Position numbers and translations under genes: made by a program. From NCBI GenBank assembly GCA_902573425.1, contig CACGJO010000001.1, positions 1-64,000 on the forward strand: a stretch of 64,000 nucleotides of DNA, read 5' to 3'. Origin of the DNA: an uncultured Pelagibacteraceae bacterium (GTDB taxonomy: Bacteria > Pseudomonadota > Alphaproteobacteria > Pelagibacterales > Pelagibacteraceae). Under the pieces are notes generated by a model. That model did not search any database, had not been told where the DNA came from, and worked only from the letters and a program-made list of their open reading frames with translations. This document shows, piece by piece, positions 8,918-33,187 of the stretch; the first letter of the stretch is position 1; each line of letters begins with the position of its first letter.

Positions 8918-9619
8918 ATGGAATATAGAACTCAAATTAAAAAGTTGAGTTTATGGATATTTATAATTCCATTTATTGCAATTAATCTTTGTTTATTCAT
9001 TTCAGTAAATTATGAAATTTTTGACAATACTTTTTTAACCGTTGATCAAATCGGTAGGTCCGGTCCTACATTTCCATATTTTGATGGAGGGGTATCGATA
9101 AGTAGAACAGCAAGAACATATCCAACATTTTTAATTTTTAAACCTTCAATGTTTTTAGCATCTGCTCTGCTAATTATGTACTGGATAAAAACAAATAATC
9201 TGATTAATTCATATCAAAATACCGAAAATGTAAATAATAGATTTAAAACATTCGGCATTCTTTCAGCAATTTTTTTAATAATTCATTCAATATTACTGGG
9301 GGTTAAATTTGATTATGATTTGTATAAATTTTTTAGAAGATTCGTGTTATTAGGTTTTATTATTTTTGAAATAGTTGCACAGTCACTTTTGGTAATTAAA
9401 TTTTATAAATTAAAGTCTATGATCATAAAAGATATCAATAATTATGTTTTAACTTTAAAAATTATATTAGTTTCAATTTTAGTTGTTGTAGCAATATTCA
9501 GCTTGCCAATAGTTGTAACAAGTGGGAATGTTCATTTCAAACATGCTTTAGAATGGAATTATTTTGTAGGAGTGATTCTATTTTATTTATTAACTTTTCT
9601 GTTTTGGAAAAAAAATTAA
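8918..9619 (+). CDS. Multi-pass membrane protein of unknown function
   Basis: 233 aa with several hydrophobic segments; no family recognised. Confidence 0.7.
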   Translation: MEYRTQIKKLSLWIFIIPFIAINLCLFISVNYEIFDNTFLTVDQIGRSGPTFPYFDGGVSISRTARTYPTFLIFKPSMFLASALLIMYWIKTNNLINSYQNTENVNNRFKTFGILSAIFLIIHSILLGVKFDYDLYKFFRRFVLLGFIIFEIVAQSLLVIKFYKLKSMIIKDINNYVLTLKIILVSILVVVAIFSLPIVVTSGNVHFKHALEWNYFVGVILFYLLTFLFWKKN

Positions 9620-9803
9620 ACTCAAGGTCTACACACCTTTCGGTGCGCAGACTTAAGTTTTGGTTCGTCGTTTTAGGCGCTACCGCCGAACCTCCCGCTC
9701 TGCAATTTTAGCGCTACTCTGCAGAACTTTCTGCCCGTTAAGCTTAAACCTCTCGGCCTTTCCTTAACTGGCCAGTTGAGAGTTGCCTCTCAATTCATTT
9801 CTA
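9605..9803 (-). ncRNA. Candidate structured ncRNA (~190 nt) downstream of mnmA
   Basis: No ORF. The minus strand has TTGAGAG-GCAA-CTCTCAA, two hairpins with related loops GUAGCGC(C)UAAAA, and a GAAA-capped terminator stem whose two variant pairs are G-U on this strand only. Confidence 0.7.
9607..9658 (-). terminator. Rho-independent terminator of the candidate ncRNA
   Basis: Minus strand: ACTTAAGTCTGCGCACC-GAAA-GGTGTGTAGACCTTGAGT then TTAATTTTTTTT. Confidence 0.8.
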
Positions 9804-9807
9804 TTAA

Positions 9808-9813
9808 ATCATA
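9808..9813 (-). promoter_or_regulatory. Possible -10 element (TATGAT) for the candidate ncRNA
   Basis: TATGAT on the minus strand just upstream of the structured region and downstream of the mnmA stop; no clear -35. Confidence 0.35.
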
Positions 9814-9849
9814 TCCAAAAAAAAATGTTATCACTTTTTGGTTGTTTTT

Positions 9850-10995
9850 TTATCGGGTTGTGAGTTGTGTGGATAATTTTTTATTAAGCGTTTTATCTAT
9901 CCAGCCGCCTCCTAATAATCTTTCTCCTAGATTATTTTTTGAATAGAAAACACAAGCTTGGCCTGGTGAAATACCTTTCTCGTCTTCTGAAATATTTACT
10001 AATGCTTGATCTTTTTTAATTTCAACTTTTGATTTTAATAATTTCCCAGTCGATCTAACTTTAATAAAAATTTCTTTTTCGAAGTTTTCTTTATTAGATA
10101 AAAGATTTAAGTCTCTCAGATAAAGCTTATTTATATTTAAATTATCTTGAGTTCCGACAATTATTGCATTTTTTTTTGCGTTTATATCAACTACATACAA
10201 AGGTTCTTTACTTGATATCTTGATCCCTTTTCTTTGACCAATTGTAAAATTTATTATTCCCTCATGGAATCCTAATTTTTTACCTTCTAAATCCAGTATT
10301 TCTCCCTTTTGATATGATTGAGGATTATATTTTTGAATTACTGACGCGTAATCTCCATTAGGAACAAAACATATATCCTGACTATCTGGTTTCTCTGCTA
10401 CATTTAGATTTAATTTAGTTGCAATTTTTCTAGTCTCTGTTTTGTTAATTTTACCAAGTGGAAATCTAAGGAAATCAAGTTGTTTTTGGGTTGTGCTGAA
10501 TAAAAAATAACTTTGATCACGCTCTTTATCTTCTGCTCTGTACATTTGTCCCATACCGTCAAGTTCGTGTCTTAAGACATAATGACCAGTTACTAACGCA
10601 TCTGCTTTTAGATCTTTTGCATATTTAAACAAATCTCTAAATTTTACAGTTTGATTGCATTGAACACAAGGTATTGGGGTTTCACCAGCGGTGTAACTAT
10701 TGATAAAGGAGTCTATAACCTCTTTTTTGAATTTTTTTTGGTAATAAAGAATTTTGTGCTCTATATTTAAATTCTCTGAAACTCTTTTTGCGTCAATAAT
10801 ATCTCTTCCAGCACAACATTGTTTGCCTTTTGAAGAGCTTTTTATATCATCATATAATTTTAAAGTTATCCCAGTCACGTCATAACCCTCTTCTTTCATT
10901 AGACCAGCAACAACAGATGAGTCTACACCACCCGACATGGCGACTACAATTTTAGTATCTTTTGGCGACTTTTTTATACCTAGAGAGTTAATCAT
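9850..10995 (-). CDS. mnmA: tRNA-specific 2-thiouridylase MnmA
   Basis: [53 protein letters not shown]. Confidence 0.93.
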
Positions 10996-12686: not shown

Positions 12687-13157
12687 ATGATTGATAGTTT
12701 TTTAAATTTTCTCACTTACGAGAATATATACTATATAGCAAACATAGGTGTAATTCCTTGTTGGTTTTTTTTAATTATTTTACCAAATCACATAATTACA
12801 AATTTTTTAGTTAAATCAGTAATCATACCATTATTATTATCCACAGCTTATATATTTATTTCTTATCAAATTTTTATTAGCGAAAATATTTTTGAAGTTT
12901 TTAATTTATATTTGGGCTTAGATGATCTTTATGCTCTTTTTTCGAACGAAGCTTTTCTTTTGATTTTTTGGCTTCATTTTTTATCTATTAATCTTTTTGT
13001 TGGAAACTGGATTGTTAGTGATGCCAAAACATATCAAATTTCAAAATTTTTAGTAATTATTTCTTTAATCACGACATACTTTACTGGACCAACGGGTCTT
13101 TTGATTTATTGGCTGTTTAGAATTTTTTATTCTAGAAAAATAAATTTTTATGACTAA
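12687..13157 (+). CDS. ABA4-like/DUF4281 family membrane protein
   Basis: ANIGVIPCWFFLIILPN..., FVGNWIVSDA, TGPTGLLIYWLFR. Confidence 0.75.
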   Translation: MIDSFLNFLTYENIYYIANIGVIPCWFFLIILPNHIITNFLVKSVIIPLLLSTAYIFISYQIFISENIFEVFNLYLGLDDLYALFSNEAFLLIFWLHFLSINLFVGNWIVSDAKTYQISKFLVIISLITTYFTGPTGLLIYWLFRIFYSRKINFYD

Positions 13158-28643: not shown

Positions 28644-31511
28644 TTAAGCTGCATCTTCTTTATACTCTTGAAGAGTTGGACAAGAGCAAACTAAGTTTCT
28701 ATCACCAAAAACATTATCAACTCTTCCAACTGGTGGCCAAAACTTATTATCTTTCAAATATTCATTTGGAAATGCTGCTTCTTCTCTTTTATATAAGTGT
28801 TTCCATTCATCTCCACTAAGCTCAAGATGTGTGTGTGGGGCATTTTTCAAAGGATTGTCTTTCTTATCAAAACTACCATTATCAACTTTGTCAATTTCTT
28901 TTTTAATAGATATTAATGCATTACAAAAACGATTTATCTCTGACAGATTTTCACTCTCTGTTGGTTCAATCATTAATGTTCCAGCAACAGGCCAGGACAT
29001 TGTTGGGGCGTGATAACCGTAATCTATTAATCTTTTGGCGATATCTTCCTCTGAAATTCCCGATTTAGATTTTATTGGTCTAAGATCTATAATACATTCG
29101 TGTGCAACATTTCCATTTTTTCCTTTGTAGAGAACTTTATAATGATTAGATAATTTTTTTGATATGTAATTTGCGTTTAAAATTGCTACCTCAGATGCTT
29201 TTCTTAAACCTTCAGCTCCCATCATCTTTATATACATCCAGGAAATTGGTAATATACTCGCACTTCCCCATGGCGCAGCAGATACAGAGCCTAAACTTTT
29301 CTCGGATCTATTATTTTTAGTAATGTTATGATTTGGTAAAAAATCTTTTAAGTGTTTCGCGCATGCGATTGGACCCATGCCTGGCCCTCCTCCTCCATGT
29401 GGAATACAAAAAGTTTTGTGTAAGTTAATATGACAAACATCTGGTCCAAATTTTCCGGGTTTTGCAATACCAACTAGTGCGTTAAGGTTTGCACCATCCA
29501 TATAAACTTGACCGCCAGCTTTGTGAACATAATCACAAATTTCACTAATTTTTTCTTCGAATACTCCATGTGTTGATGGGTAGGTTACCATCAGAGCAGC
29601 TAAATCTTTTGAATACTTATTTACCTTATCTTTTAAATCTATTAAATCAACATTGCCTTCTTCATCGCAATTAACAACTACCACTTTCATACCACACATT
29701 TGTGCGCTTGCAGGATTTGTACCGTGTGCTGACTCTGGTATCAAACATACATTTCTATTTTTTTGATTATTATTCAAATGAAATTTACGTATTGTCATTA
29801 ATCCTGAATATTCTCCTTGAGCACCTGAATTTGGTTGAAGGGAAACTGCATCAAAACCTGTGATTTCCTTCAAATCATTAACTAAATCATTAAATAAAAC
29901 CTTATACCCTTTCATTTGATCTTGGGGCACAAAAGGATGTGGTAATGAGAATTCTTTCCAAGTCACAGGGATAAGTTCCGCTGTAGCATTTAACTTCATC
30001 GTACATGAACCAAGTGCAATCATAGATCTATTTAAAGCAATATCACAATCTTCTAATCTTTTTAAATAACGAAGCATCTCAGTTTCTGAATGATATTTAT
30101 GAAAAATAGGGTGAGTCAGATATTTAGATGTTCTTAAAAGATTTTTTGGTAAATTAGTTAAATCAACTTTATCAGTATTACTAAATGTTTTTTTTATTCC
30201 GAATATTTTTAGTAGAATATTTACATGATCAACTCTCTTAACCTCATCAAAAGCTACAGATAATGTATTTTTATCTACTACCCTTAAATTAATTTTTTCT
30301 GATAAGGCCTTGTTATTTATAGTGTCTGTTTTCTCATTTGTTTTGACAGTAACTGTATCAAAAAAATTTTCGGAGTGTAGTTGATAACCACCTGATTTCA
30401 GTCCATCAGCAAATATTTTTGCTAACTTTGATGTCCTATTAGCTATTTTTAAAATTCCTTCAGGTCCATGATAAATTGCATAAGCAGCTGAAAGAATTGC
30501 AAGTAGTGCTTGAGCAGTACAAATATTGCTTGTAGCCTTATCTCTTCTTATGTGCTGTTCTCTTGTTTGAAGAGATAACCTGAACGCTTTTTTCCCATGT
30601 CTATCAACTGATACTCCAATAATTCTACCTGGCATAGATCTTTTAAATTCTTCTTTAGTTGCAAAAAACGCTGCATGTGGACCTCCATAACCCATAGGTA
30701 TTCCAAATCTTTGTGCACTTCCAACAGCAATATCTGCCCCAAGTTCTGCTGGGGTTTTAAGTCTTGTTAAAGATAACAGATCACTAACAATAATTACTTT
30801 ACCTTCTTTTTTATGAATTAAGCTAATAGATTCACTGGGGTCTTTAATTTCACCTAAAGTTCCAGGGTAAGCTAAAACACCACAAATAATTTTATCTTTA
30901 ATACCTTTTAAAATTTTTTCCTCATCACCAATAATTAGCTCTATATTGAATGGCTCAACCCTTGTCTTAATTATATCAATTGTTTGAGGGTTACATGAGC
31001 TTGATACAAATATCTTTTTTGAATTATTTTTGTCTAATCTTTGACACAAACCCACTGCTTCAGCGGCAGCAGTTCCTTCATCTAATAACGAAGCATTTGC
31101 TATATCCATACCAGTTAAATCCATTATCATTTGTTGGAAATTAATAAGCATTTCCAATCTTCCCTGGGCTACTTCAGGTTGGTATGGAGTGTAAGAAGTA
31201 TACCAACCAGGATTCTCCAGTATATTTCTTAAAATAACATTTGGGGTAACAGTATTATAGTAACCCATGCCTATAAAATTACGGAAAACTTCATTTTTTT
31301 TTGACAAAAGTTTCAATTTTTTTAGAGCATCATTCTCTGACATTGGCTCATCAATTTTAAGTTCATCTTTAATTAAAATATTCTTTGGAACAGTATTCTC
31401 AATTAAATTATCAATTGATTTTGAAGATATTGCTTTTAACATCTCTATTTGATCTTCAGTGCTTGGACCAATGTGTCTACTAATAAATTCTTTTGAAGTA
31501 TCGTCTATCAT
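28644..31511 (-). CDS. gcvP: Glycine dehydrogenase (decarboxylating), P protein
   Basis: FISRHIGPSTEDQIEML, YGGPHAAFFATKEEFKR, NICTAQALLA, NLHKTFCIPHGGGGPGMGPI. Confidence 0.97.
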   Translation of the reverse strand: MIDDTSKEFISRHIGPSTEDQIEMLKAISSKSIDNLIENTVPKNILIKDELKIDEPMSENDALKKLKLLSKKNEVFRNFIGMGYYNTVTPNVILRNILENPGWYTSYTPYQPEVAQGRLEMLINFQQMIMDLTGMDIANASLLDEGTAAAEAVGLCQRLDKNNSKKIFVSSSCNPQTIDIIKTRVEPFNIELIIGDEEKILKGIKDKIICGVLAYPGTLGEIKDPSESISLIHKKEGKVIIVSDLLSLTRLKTPAELGADIAVGSAQRFGIPMGYGGPHAAFFATKEEFKRSMPGRIIGVSVDRHGKKAFRLSLQTREQHIRRDKATSNICTAQALLAILSAAYAIYHGPEGILKIANRTSKLAKIFADGLKSGGYQLHSENFFDTVTVKTNEKTDTINNKALSEKINLRVVDKNTLSVAFDEVKRVDHVNILLKIFGIKKTFSNTDKVDLTNLPKNLLRTSKYLTHPIFHKYHSETEMLRYLKRLEDCDIALNRSMIALGSCTMKLNATAELIPVTWKEFSLPHPFVPQDQMKGYKVLFNDLVNDLKEITGFDAVSLQPNSGAQGEYSGLMTIRKFHLNNNQKNRNVCLIPESAHGTNPASAQMCGMKVVVVNCDEEGNVDLIDLKDKVNKYSKDLAALMVTYPSTHGVFEEKISEICDYVHKAGGQVYMDGANLNALVGIAKPGKFGPDVCHINLHKTFCIPHGGGGPGMGPIACAKHLKDFLPNHNITKNNRSEKSLGSVSAAPWGSASILPISWMYIKMMGAEGLRKASEVAILNANYISKKLSNHYKVLYKGKNGNVAHECIIDLRPIKSKSGISEEDIAKRLIDYGYHAPTMSWPVAGTLMIEPTESENLSEINRFCNALISIKKEIDKVDNGSFDKKDNPLKNAPHTHLELSGDEWKHLYKREEAAFPNEYLKDNKFWPPVGRVDNVFGDRNLVCSCPTLQEYKEDAA

Positions 31512-31901: not shown

Positions 31902-32990
31902 CTATTTGACATAACTCTTTTTATAAAACGGTAATTTGGATACTTTGGCCTCATGCTTTTTTCCTCTTACCTCTATTAAAATTTTATTATCAATTTCTGA
32001 AAATTTACTTTTTACATATCCCATGGCAACTGGACTATTTACGCTTGGTCCATATGTACCGCTCGTTATAATTCCTATTTCCTCACCAGTATTAGAATAA
32101 ATTTTTGTACCTTCCCTTGCGATAATTTTACCTGCTGGTTTAACGCCAACTCTAATTTTAGAAACTCCGTTTTGTAAATCTTTTTTAATATTTTCCCAGC
32201 CTTTAAATCCTCCTGTCTCTCTTCTTTTTTTTGAAATTGCCCATTTTAAATTTGCTTGAATCGGATTAATCTCTTGATTTAATTCATGACCATACAAACA
32301 TAAACCCGCTTCTAATCTAAGTGTATCTCTTGCTCCCAAACCTATAGGTTTAGCGTCTTTATCTGTAAGTAGTTTGATAAGATTTTCAACAATTACATTT
32401 GGAACTGAAATCTCAAAACCATCTTCGCCAGTGTAACCAGAACGAGTTATATAAATTTTCTTTTCAAGAAATTTAAAATAATTACCATTCATAAATTTGA
32501 GTTCTTTTACACCTTTAATAATTGATTCTAGAATTATTTCCGCTTTAGGACCTTGTAAAGCTATAAGAGATAAATCTTTTCTTAATTCGTATTTACTTTC
32601 GGAATTTAGACACTTTGCAATTTCTTTAATATCGTTATCCTTGCAAGCTGCATTCAATATAATATTAAAACCATTTTCAACTCTTGTTATAATAAGATCA
32701 TCTATAACTCCTCCTTCATCATTAATTAAAAAGGAATATTTAGACTGGTTCATCTTAATTTCTTTAAAATCTAACGGTATGATTTTTTCTAAACTAAGTT
32801 CTGTTGATCGGCCTCCAGAGACATAAAACTGCCCCATATGTGATACATCAAAAAAACCTGCGAACTGTCTTGTATTTATATGTTCTTTAACTATGCCATC
32901 TTTATATTGGATAGGCATCTCATAACCAGCGAAAGGAACGAACTTAGCTCCTGAGTTTTTATGAAAATTATATAAAGCTGTTTTTTCCAT
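31902..32990 (-). CDS. gcvT: Aminomethyltransferase, T protein
   Basis: [63 protein letters not shown]. Confidence 0.95.
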
Positions 32991-33014: not shown

Positions 33015-33156
33015 ATCTGTCTAAGAACCTGAGAGATTTACTCCTTCGGTGAGGCTATGCCTGCTTTCCAGAGTTATTACAATAACGGTCCTTTTGCCTG
33101 AGAGTTTCCAGGGAGGTTGCTCCTTCGGCGCTATATTTAAATAGTCTCTCCCGTTA
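33015..33156 (-). promoter_or_regulatory. Tandem glycine riboswitch upstream of gcvT
   Basis: Minus strand: GGGAGAGAC..GCGCCGAAGGAGCAACCTCCC..AACTCTCAGGCAAAAGGACCG (aptamer 1), then CTCTGGAAAGC..CACCGAAGGAGTAAATCTCTCAGGTTCTTAGACAGA (aptamer 2). Confidence 0.95.
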
Positions 33157-33187
33157 TTTTTTTTTTATAACACAAAATTTAGATAAA

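Follow-up and report, generated by a model that had tools for sequence, protein, structure and literature searches.

IMES-2, a small RNA gene in a SAR11 (Pelagibacteraceae) genome: a covarying kissing helix and a conserved DnaA-box-like element upstream

IMES-2 (RF02035) is held in Rfam as a model of 141 positions that stops before a terminator, and its printed structure line gives neither a kissing helix nor a promoter or taxon. In the 2009 study of marine environmental sequences in which the IMES motifs were named, their high abundance in marine metatranscriptomes was reportedly stressed; IMES-1 (RF02034), a separate family of 191 positions, is said to have its name from there too. To our knowledge, no function has been assigned to IMES-2; a literature search on IMES-2 and RF02035, which did not take in the original 2009 description, found nothing relevant. 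The 6S RNA (RF00013) is likewise an abundant stand-alone bacterial RNA of similar size, but it consists of one long hairpin with a central bubble, whereas IMES-2 strings several short hairpins together and has a kissing contact. Kissing-loop contacts, together with A-minor contacts, are also found in the structured bacterial RNAs GOLLD, ROOL and OLE (PMC12286853). These RNAs are far larger than IMES-2 (~190 nt) and form homo-oligomers.

Identity of the locus and its nested fold

The window, a stretch of 64,000 nucleotides from the draft genome of an uncultured Pelagibacteraceae bacterium, was searched with Rfam 15 cmscan. RF02035 was matched at 9800-9660 on the minus strand with 160.7 bits (cut-off 54.7, E 2.7e-42), over the full length of the model and with all of its helices. 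As in the Rfam family, the match is full, the copy is single (within the window's own draft genome) and the host is a marine bacterium. A sequence-only reading had proposed an undescribed RNA here and had named cmscan as its own check; the claim to novelty fails because the element is already in Rfam as IMES-2, while its proposal that the minus strand of this SAR11 genome encodes a structured non-coding RNA of ~190 nt is supported. Membership in RF02035 makes the segment this genome's gene for the IMES-2 small RNA, and a transcript of ~190 nt is predicted from promoter-like and terminator signals. The features of the RNA are as follows.

9608-9801, minus strand: IMES-2 RNA gene with a predicted transcript of ~190 nt (RF02035 match; start placed from the -10-like TATGAT, end from the terminator)
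9660-9800, minus strand: Rfam IMES-2 core, model positions 1-141 of 141, 160.7 bits
9776-9793, minus strand: hairpin a, 7-bp stem with a GNRA (GCAA) tetraloop; 100% of cells paired, five of seven pairs with compensatory changes
9731-9775, minus strand: central domain, an outer helix and an inner GAGA-capped hairpin; helices 2 and 3 paired in 94.7 and 92.4% of cells, respectively
9697-9727, minus strand: hairpin b, 8 bp, loop GUAGCGCUAAAAU; compensatory changes in all eight pairs
9662-9692, minus strand: hairpin c, nine positions with one G.A mismatch conserved in the alignment, loop GUAGCGCCUAAAA
9608-9660, minus strand: predicted intrinsic terminator, a long hairpin with a U tract, beyond the end of the Rfam model (from its fold and from similar signals at other loci)

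Folding of the 211-nt region yields -79 kcal/mol, compared with -51.4 +/- 4.25 kcal/mol in dinucleotide shuffles (z = -6.5; none of 200 as low), and the segment is richer in GC than its surroundings (0.46 vs. 0.31 for the window), as had been observed from the letters. All four hairpins described in the sequence-only reading, on the minus strand of 9605-9803, were found in their places; hairpin b is present with a stem of 8 bp, not 7. The central domain, in which CUGGCC...GGGCAG encloses the GAGA-capped hairpin, had been overlooked, as had the upstream promoter region. Loci of IMES-2 were gathered from relatives and 100 were aligned with a covariance model (87 distinct sequences). Among the distinct sequences, 94.8% of cells are paired as the nested fold expects, against only 33-43% in slid controls, and compensatory double changes occur in 34 of 44 pairs (521 cells vs. 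134 in shuffles), including 13 of the 15 pairs of the central domain. The nested fold of IMES-2 is thus shown by sequence comparison, and the covariation check that had been suggested for relatives finds the consensus structure kept by compensatory changes.

The terminator hairpin occupies 9660-9618 and its U tract runs to 9608; a comparable hairpin with a T run is present in 41 of 54 diverse IMES-2 loci. Its predicted folding energy is -26.2 kcal/mol on the minus strand vs. -14.1 kcal/mol on the plus strand, and this stronger folding supports the assignment of the gene to the minus strand. The same strand had been argued from two imperfect positions in the terminator stem; the strand is upheld, but the imperfections are three G-U pairs and one bulged C.

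The kissing helix between loops b and c

The near-identical loops of hairpins b and c had been read as two identical binding sites. However, the loops covary as complements of each other, which fits a kissing helix better, and they look identical because the commonest kissing sequence, AGCGCU, is palindromic. The two halves of the proposed helix are the following.

9710-9714, minus strand: 5' half of the kissing helix, GCGCU in loop b, covarying with 9677-9681
9677-9681, minus strand: 3' half of the kissing helix, AGCGC in loop c, covarying with 9710-9714

Over the 87 distinct homologues, 97.5% of the cells of this five-pair helix are paired. Double-changed cells number 25, compared with 3.4 +/- 1.6 in shuffles and 0-11 in slid controls. 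By rows, the loop pairs are GCGCU/AGCGC (60), GUACU/AGUAC (8), GCACU/AGUGC (6), GUGCU/AGCAC (1) and UCGCU/AGCGA (1); among these, GCACU/AGUGC and GUGCU/AGCAC are non-palindromic, and the former is kept by the most divergent homologues (62-80 bits in genus g11; 94.5 bits in g7). At the central columns 94/132 and 95/131, each alternative standard pair alters both sides, and only one cell is unpaired, whereas the outermost pair, 93/133, is weaker, with 10 rows unpaired. The loop pair changed at least 10 times on a tree from which the loop columns had been left out and in which many forks are unresolved. Covariation thereby shows that a 5-bp kissing helix joins the loops of hairpins b and c, and it fits a contact either within one molecule or between two.

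Two departures from the common form were observed. In a subtype represented by L030:1507-1640, L098:1563-1697 (minus strand) and L152:588-721 (minus strand), the stems of b and c are largely new (e.g., GAGACGAAG...CAGCGUCUC), and the kissing pair GUACU/AGUAC is retained despite the new stems. The 3' half of the IMES-2 copy at L179:269-404 (plus strand; genome AG-365-E11) mismatches the family, and this copy is possibly decaying or chimeric.

Upstream region, genomic context and host range

About 110 bp before IMES-2 are conserved despite differing upstream genes. In conserved order, this region contains TTATCC(A/C)CA, directly followed by a NNATTCACA-like sequence, then CAACNANNAAGTGATAC, and then a TATGAT-like -10. 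The corresponding features of the window are these.

9808-9834, minus strand: promoter-like GTGATA (9834-9829), 15 nt, TATGAT (9813-9808), conserved across genera with different upstream genes
9859-9876, minus strand: tandem DnaA-box-like element, TTATCCACA (9876-9868) directly followed by CAACTCACA (9867-9859), from upstream conservation

A conserved CAACNANNAAGTGAT box is located at 9844-9830 in the promoter region, and the IMES-2 promoter falls below the cut-off in a scan with the sigma-70 consensus. The second DnaA-like box is weak in the window (CAACTCACA), and the element overlaps the last mnmA codons, as it overlaps mnmA codons in genera g1 and g4. A DnaA box (TTATNCACA, at most one mismatch) was found within a 65-nt stretch in 51 of 54 diverse loci vs. 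4.6% of control stretches from the same loci; DnaA boxes thus hold a conserved position here, as expected of a DnaA-regulated promoter. With one mismatch allowed, the tandem pattern stands beside IMES-2 in seven genomes and is the sole site in six of them, with one extra in G183; a reversed control of the pattern gave zero matches. The strict tandem element is absent from the g11 genomes. The link between the tandem and IMES-2 is not absolute, because a genome without IMES-2 (G064) has a one-mismatch tandem match at C1:377438-377455 (L326). Conservation of a tandem DnaA-box-like element and a promoter region upstream of IMES-2 is shown by these comparisons, from which we infer DnaA control of IMES-2 transcription. 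A second perfect DnaA box, TTATCCACA, occurs elsewhere in the window (12837-12845, plus strand), and two per 64 kb are not significant alone.

In g1 and g4, IMES-2 follows closely on mnmA, shares its strand and faces a membrane protein gene. In the window, the latter occupies 8918-9619 (plus strand), convergent to IMES-2, a position conserved in both genera; a Pfam search with its product gave no match. The neighbors are otherwise a Phage_integrase-family recombinase with a small ORF on one side and an O6-methylguanine methyltransferase on the other (g3), SelO and RmuC (g7), or an SNase-type nuclease and SRAP (g11). Seven g3 genomes without IMES-2 keep the recombinase, the small ORF and the methyltransferase with nothing between them. 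Given such clean empty sites and the lack of a homologue in negative genomes, a unit of ~280 bp that begins with the upstream boxes and ends with the terminator is present or absent as a whole. As judged from these signals, IMES-2 makes up an autonomous unit of transcription that has a promoter region of its own and an intrinsic terminator.

IMES-2 was detected in 207 of 398 genomes of the Pelagibacterales, always in one copy. It is present in 77 of the 151 genomes of the order with at least 90% completeness, and in 27 of 30 congeners of the window. At least 80 loci were found in a named genome collection, and all those listed come from records of Pelagibacteraceae, Pelagibacter or Pelagibacterales; no match was obtained in about 390 genomes from other alphaproteobacterial orders. 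Among the genomes searched, IMES-2 was found only in Pelagibacteraceae. A dedicated covariance model, applied to the apparently negative genomes for divergent copies, returned no significant match, and IMES-2 is dispensable, as complete Pelagibacteraceae genomes without it show. A viral origin was rejected, as no IMG/VR contig matched the exact IMES-2 pattern.

Known riboregulators of the host were also sought. Hfq (TIGR02383) was found in none of 15 Pelagibacteraceae genomes, the window's own genome being 79.5% complete, and the E. coli, B. subtilis and Caulobacter controls were positive. The 6S RNA (RF00013) had no match in the window or in 35 genomes of the order. With the controls matched, SAR11 riboregulation seems to proceed without both Hfq and 6S RNA. 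IMES-1 (RF02034) had no match in 39 SAR11 genomes, in a search in which no positive control matched. A distribution of IMES-2 complementary to that of IMES-1 or 6S RNA was considered and rejected, neither family being found in any tested genome. The window also contains a glycine riboswitch (RF00504, 77.6 bits, 33076-33163, minus strand) ahead of a gcvT-like gene (31902-32990, minus strand), which is ordinary for SAR11; a glycine dehydrogenase-like gene (28644-31511, minus strand) follows the same riboswitch.

Possible modes of action

Taken jointly, the observations are read here as an autonomous IMES-2 unit encoding a kiss-locked, trans-acting, protein-binding regulatory RNA whose transcription is tied to DnaA, an account that we regard as somewhat probable. 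The kissing helix would lock hairpins b and c side by side, or join two molecules, to give a compact fold. Invariant unpaired nucleotides (the GCAA and GAGA loops, the GGAAA/CAAG internal loop and the CAGAAAG junction) could then offer a surface for a protein or complex, so that IMES-2 would regulate in trans by binding protein and not by Hfq-dependent antisense pairing. Its transcription would be tied to the replication or growth state by DnaA bound at the boxes upstream. Protein binding and a regulatory output are thus predicted parts of this account.

Alternatively, IMES-2 could be an antisense sRNA that base-pairs with mRNAs through loop or junction nucleotides, without Hfq. A free-standing gene, an intrinsic terminator with a U tail and conserved A-rich flanks of the loops would all suit such an RNA. 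However, the loop sequence that would be the obvious seed is taken up by the kissing helix and varies between species only as a pair, a long conserved unpaired stretch is absent, and Hfq was not found in the 15 genomes. Since neither Hfq nor 6S RNA was found, a standard Hfq-assisted antisense sRNA, or a detectable counterpart of 6S RNA, is not on offer, and the antisense account as a whole is possible but unlikely.

The loops could instead hold homodimers or larger assemblies together by pairing from one molecule to another. GOLLD and ROOL offer a precedent: covariation had suggested tertiary contacts between their kissing loops, and cryo-EM then showed these to be intermolecular (PMC12286853). 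Both AGCGCU, the most frequent loop sequence, and its variant AGUACU are palindromes, as self-association would have it. Yet self-pairing of b or c is lost in the non-palindromic rows (ATCGCT, AGCACT, AGTGCT/AGCACG and AGCGAC), in which b-c pairing is kept, and with b and c next to each other and their loops large, a kiss within one molecule is the simpler assumption. Assembly of this kind is therefore rather unlikely, and a contact between b of one molecule and c of another may occur.

It is also conceivable that the upstream boxes are a site of DnaA titration or modulation (datA/DARS-like), with the RNA as a passenger or a co-selected part. The tandem element is nearly unique in the genomes tested and sits at the edge of the unit that comes and goes as a whole. 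This explanation is highly doubtful, as strong constraint acts on the structure of the RNA itself, the boxes are placed, at about -75 to -58 relative to the predicted start, where an activator would normally bind, and G064 has its one-mismatch tandem without IMES-2. That the region is a chromosomal replication origin (oriC) with a transcribed RNA is scarcely credible: DnaA-box-like repeats do adjoin an AT-rich stretch, but GC skew in the closed genome G063, at ~60-kb sampling, places the origin near 1.0-1.1 Mb and IMES-2 lies at 1.211 Mb, and complete genomes are cleanly without the unit, for which reasons oriC was rejected. Derivation from the 3'-UTR of mnmA, which the sequence-only reading had offered, accords with the position of IMES-2 in g1 and g4 but is rejected by synteny and is exceedingly improbable, since linkage to mnmA is confined to these two genera and the same promoter region is conserved beside unrelated flanking genes in the others (g3, g7 and g11).

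To Rfam's printed model, the present comparison adds a kissing helix between loops b and c, a tandem DnaA-box-like element upstream, and a host range that is firmly set, with genomic contexts and empty sites. In its boldest form, the protein-binding account would make IMES-2 a DnaA-controlled RNA that couples the replication or growth state to a protein target via its kiss-locked fold, in cells with no recognizable Hfq or 6S RNA. This form is quite unlikely as a complete description; if true, some of the most abundant cells of the ocean would hold a global riboregulator of a new kind. With its host range, its autonomous unit, its kissing helix and the DnaA-box-like element upstream, the orphan motif IMES-2 now yields definite predictions that can be tested, in organisms in which the usual machinery of sRNAs was not detected.
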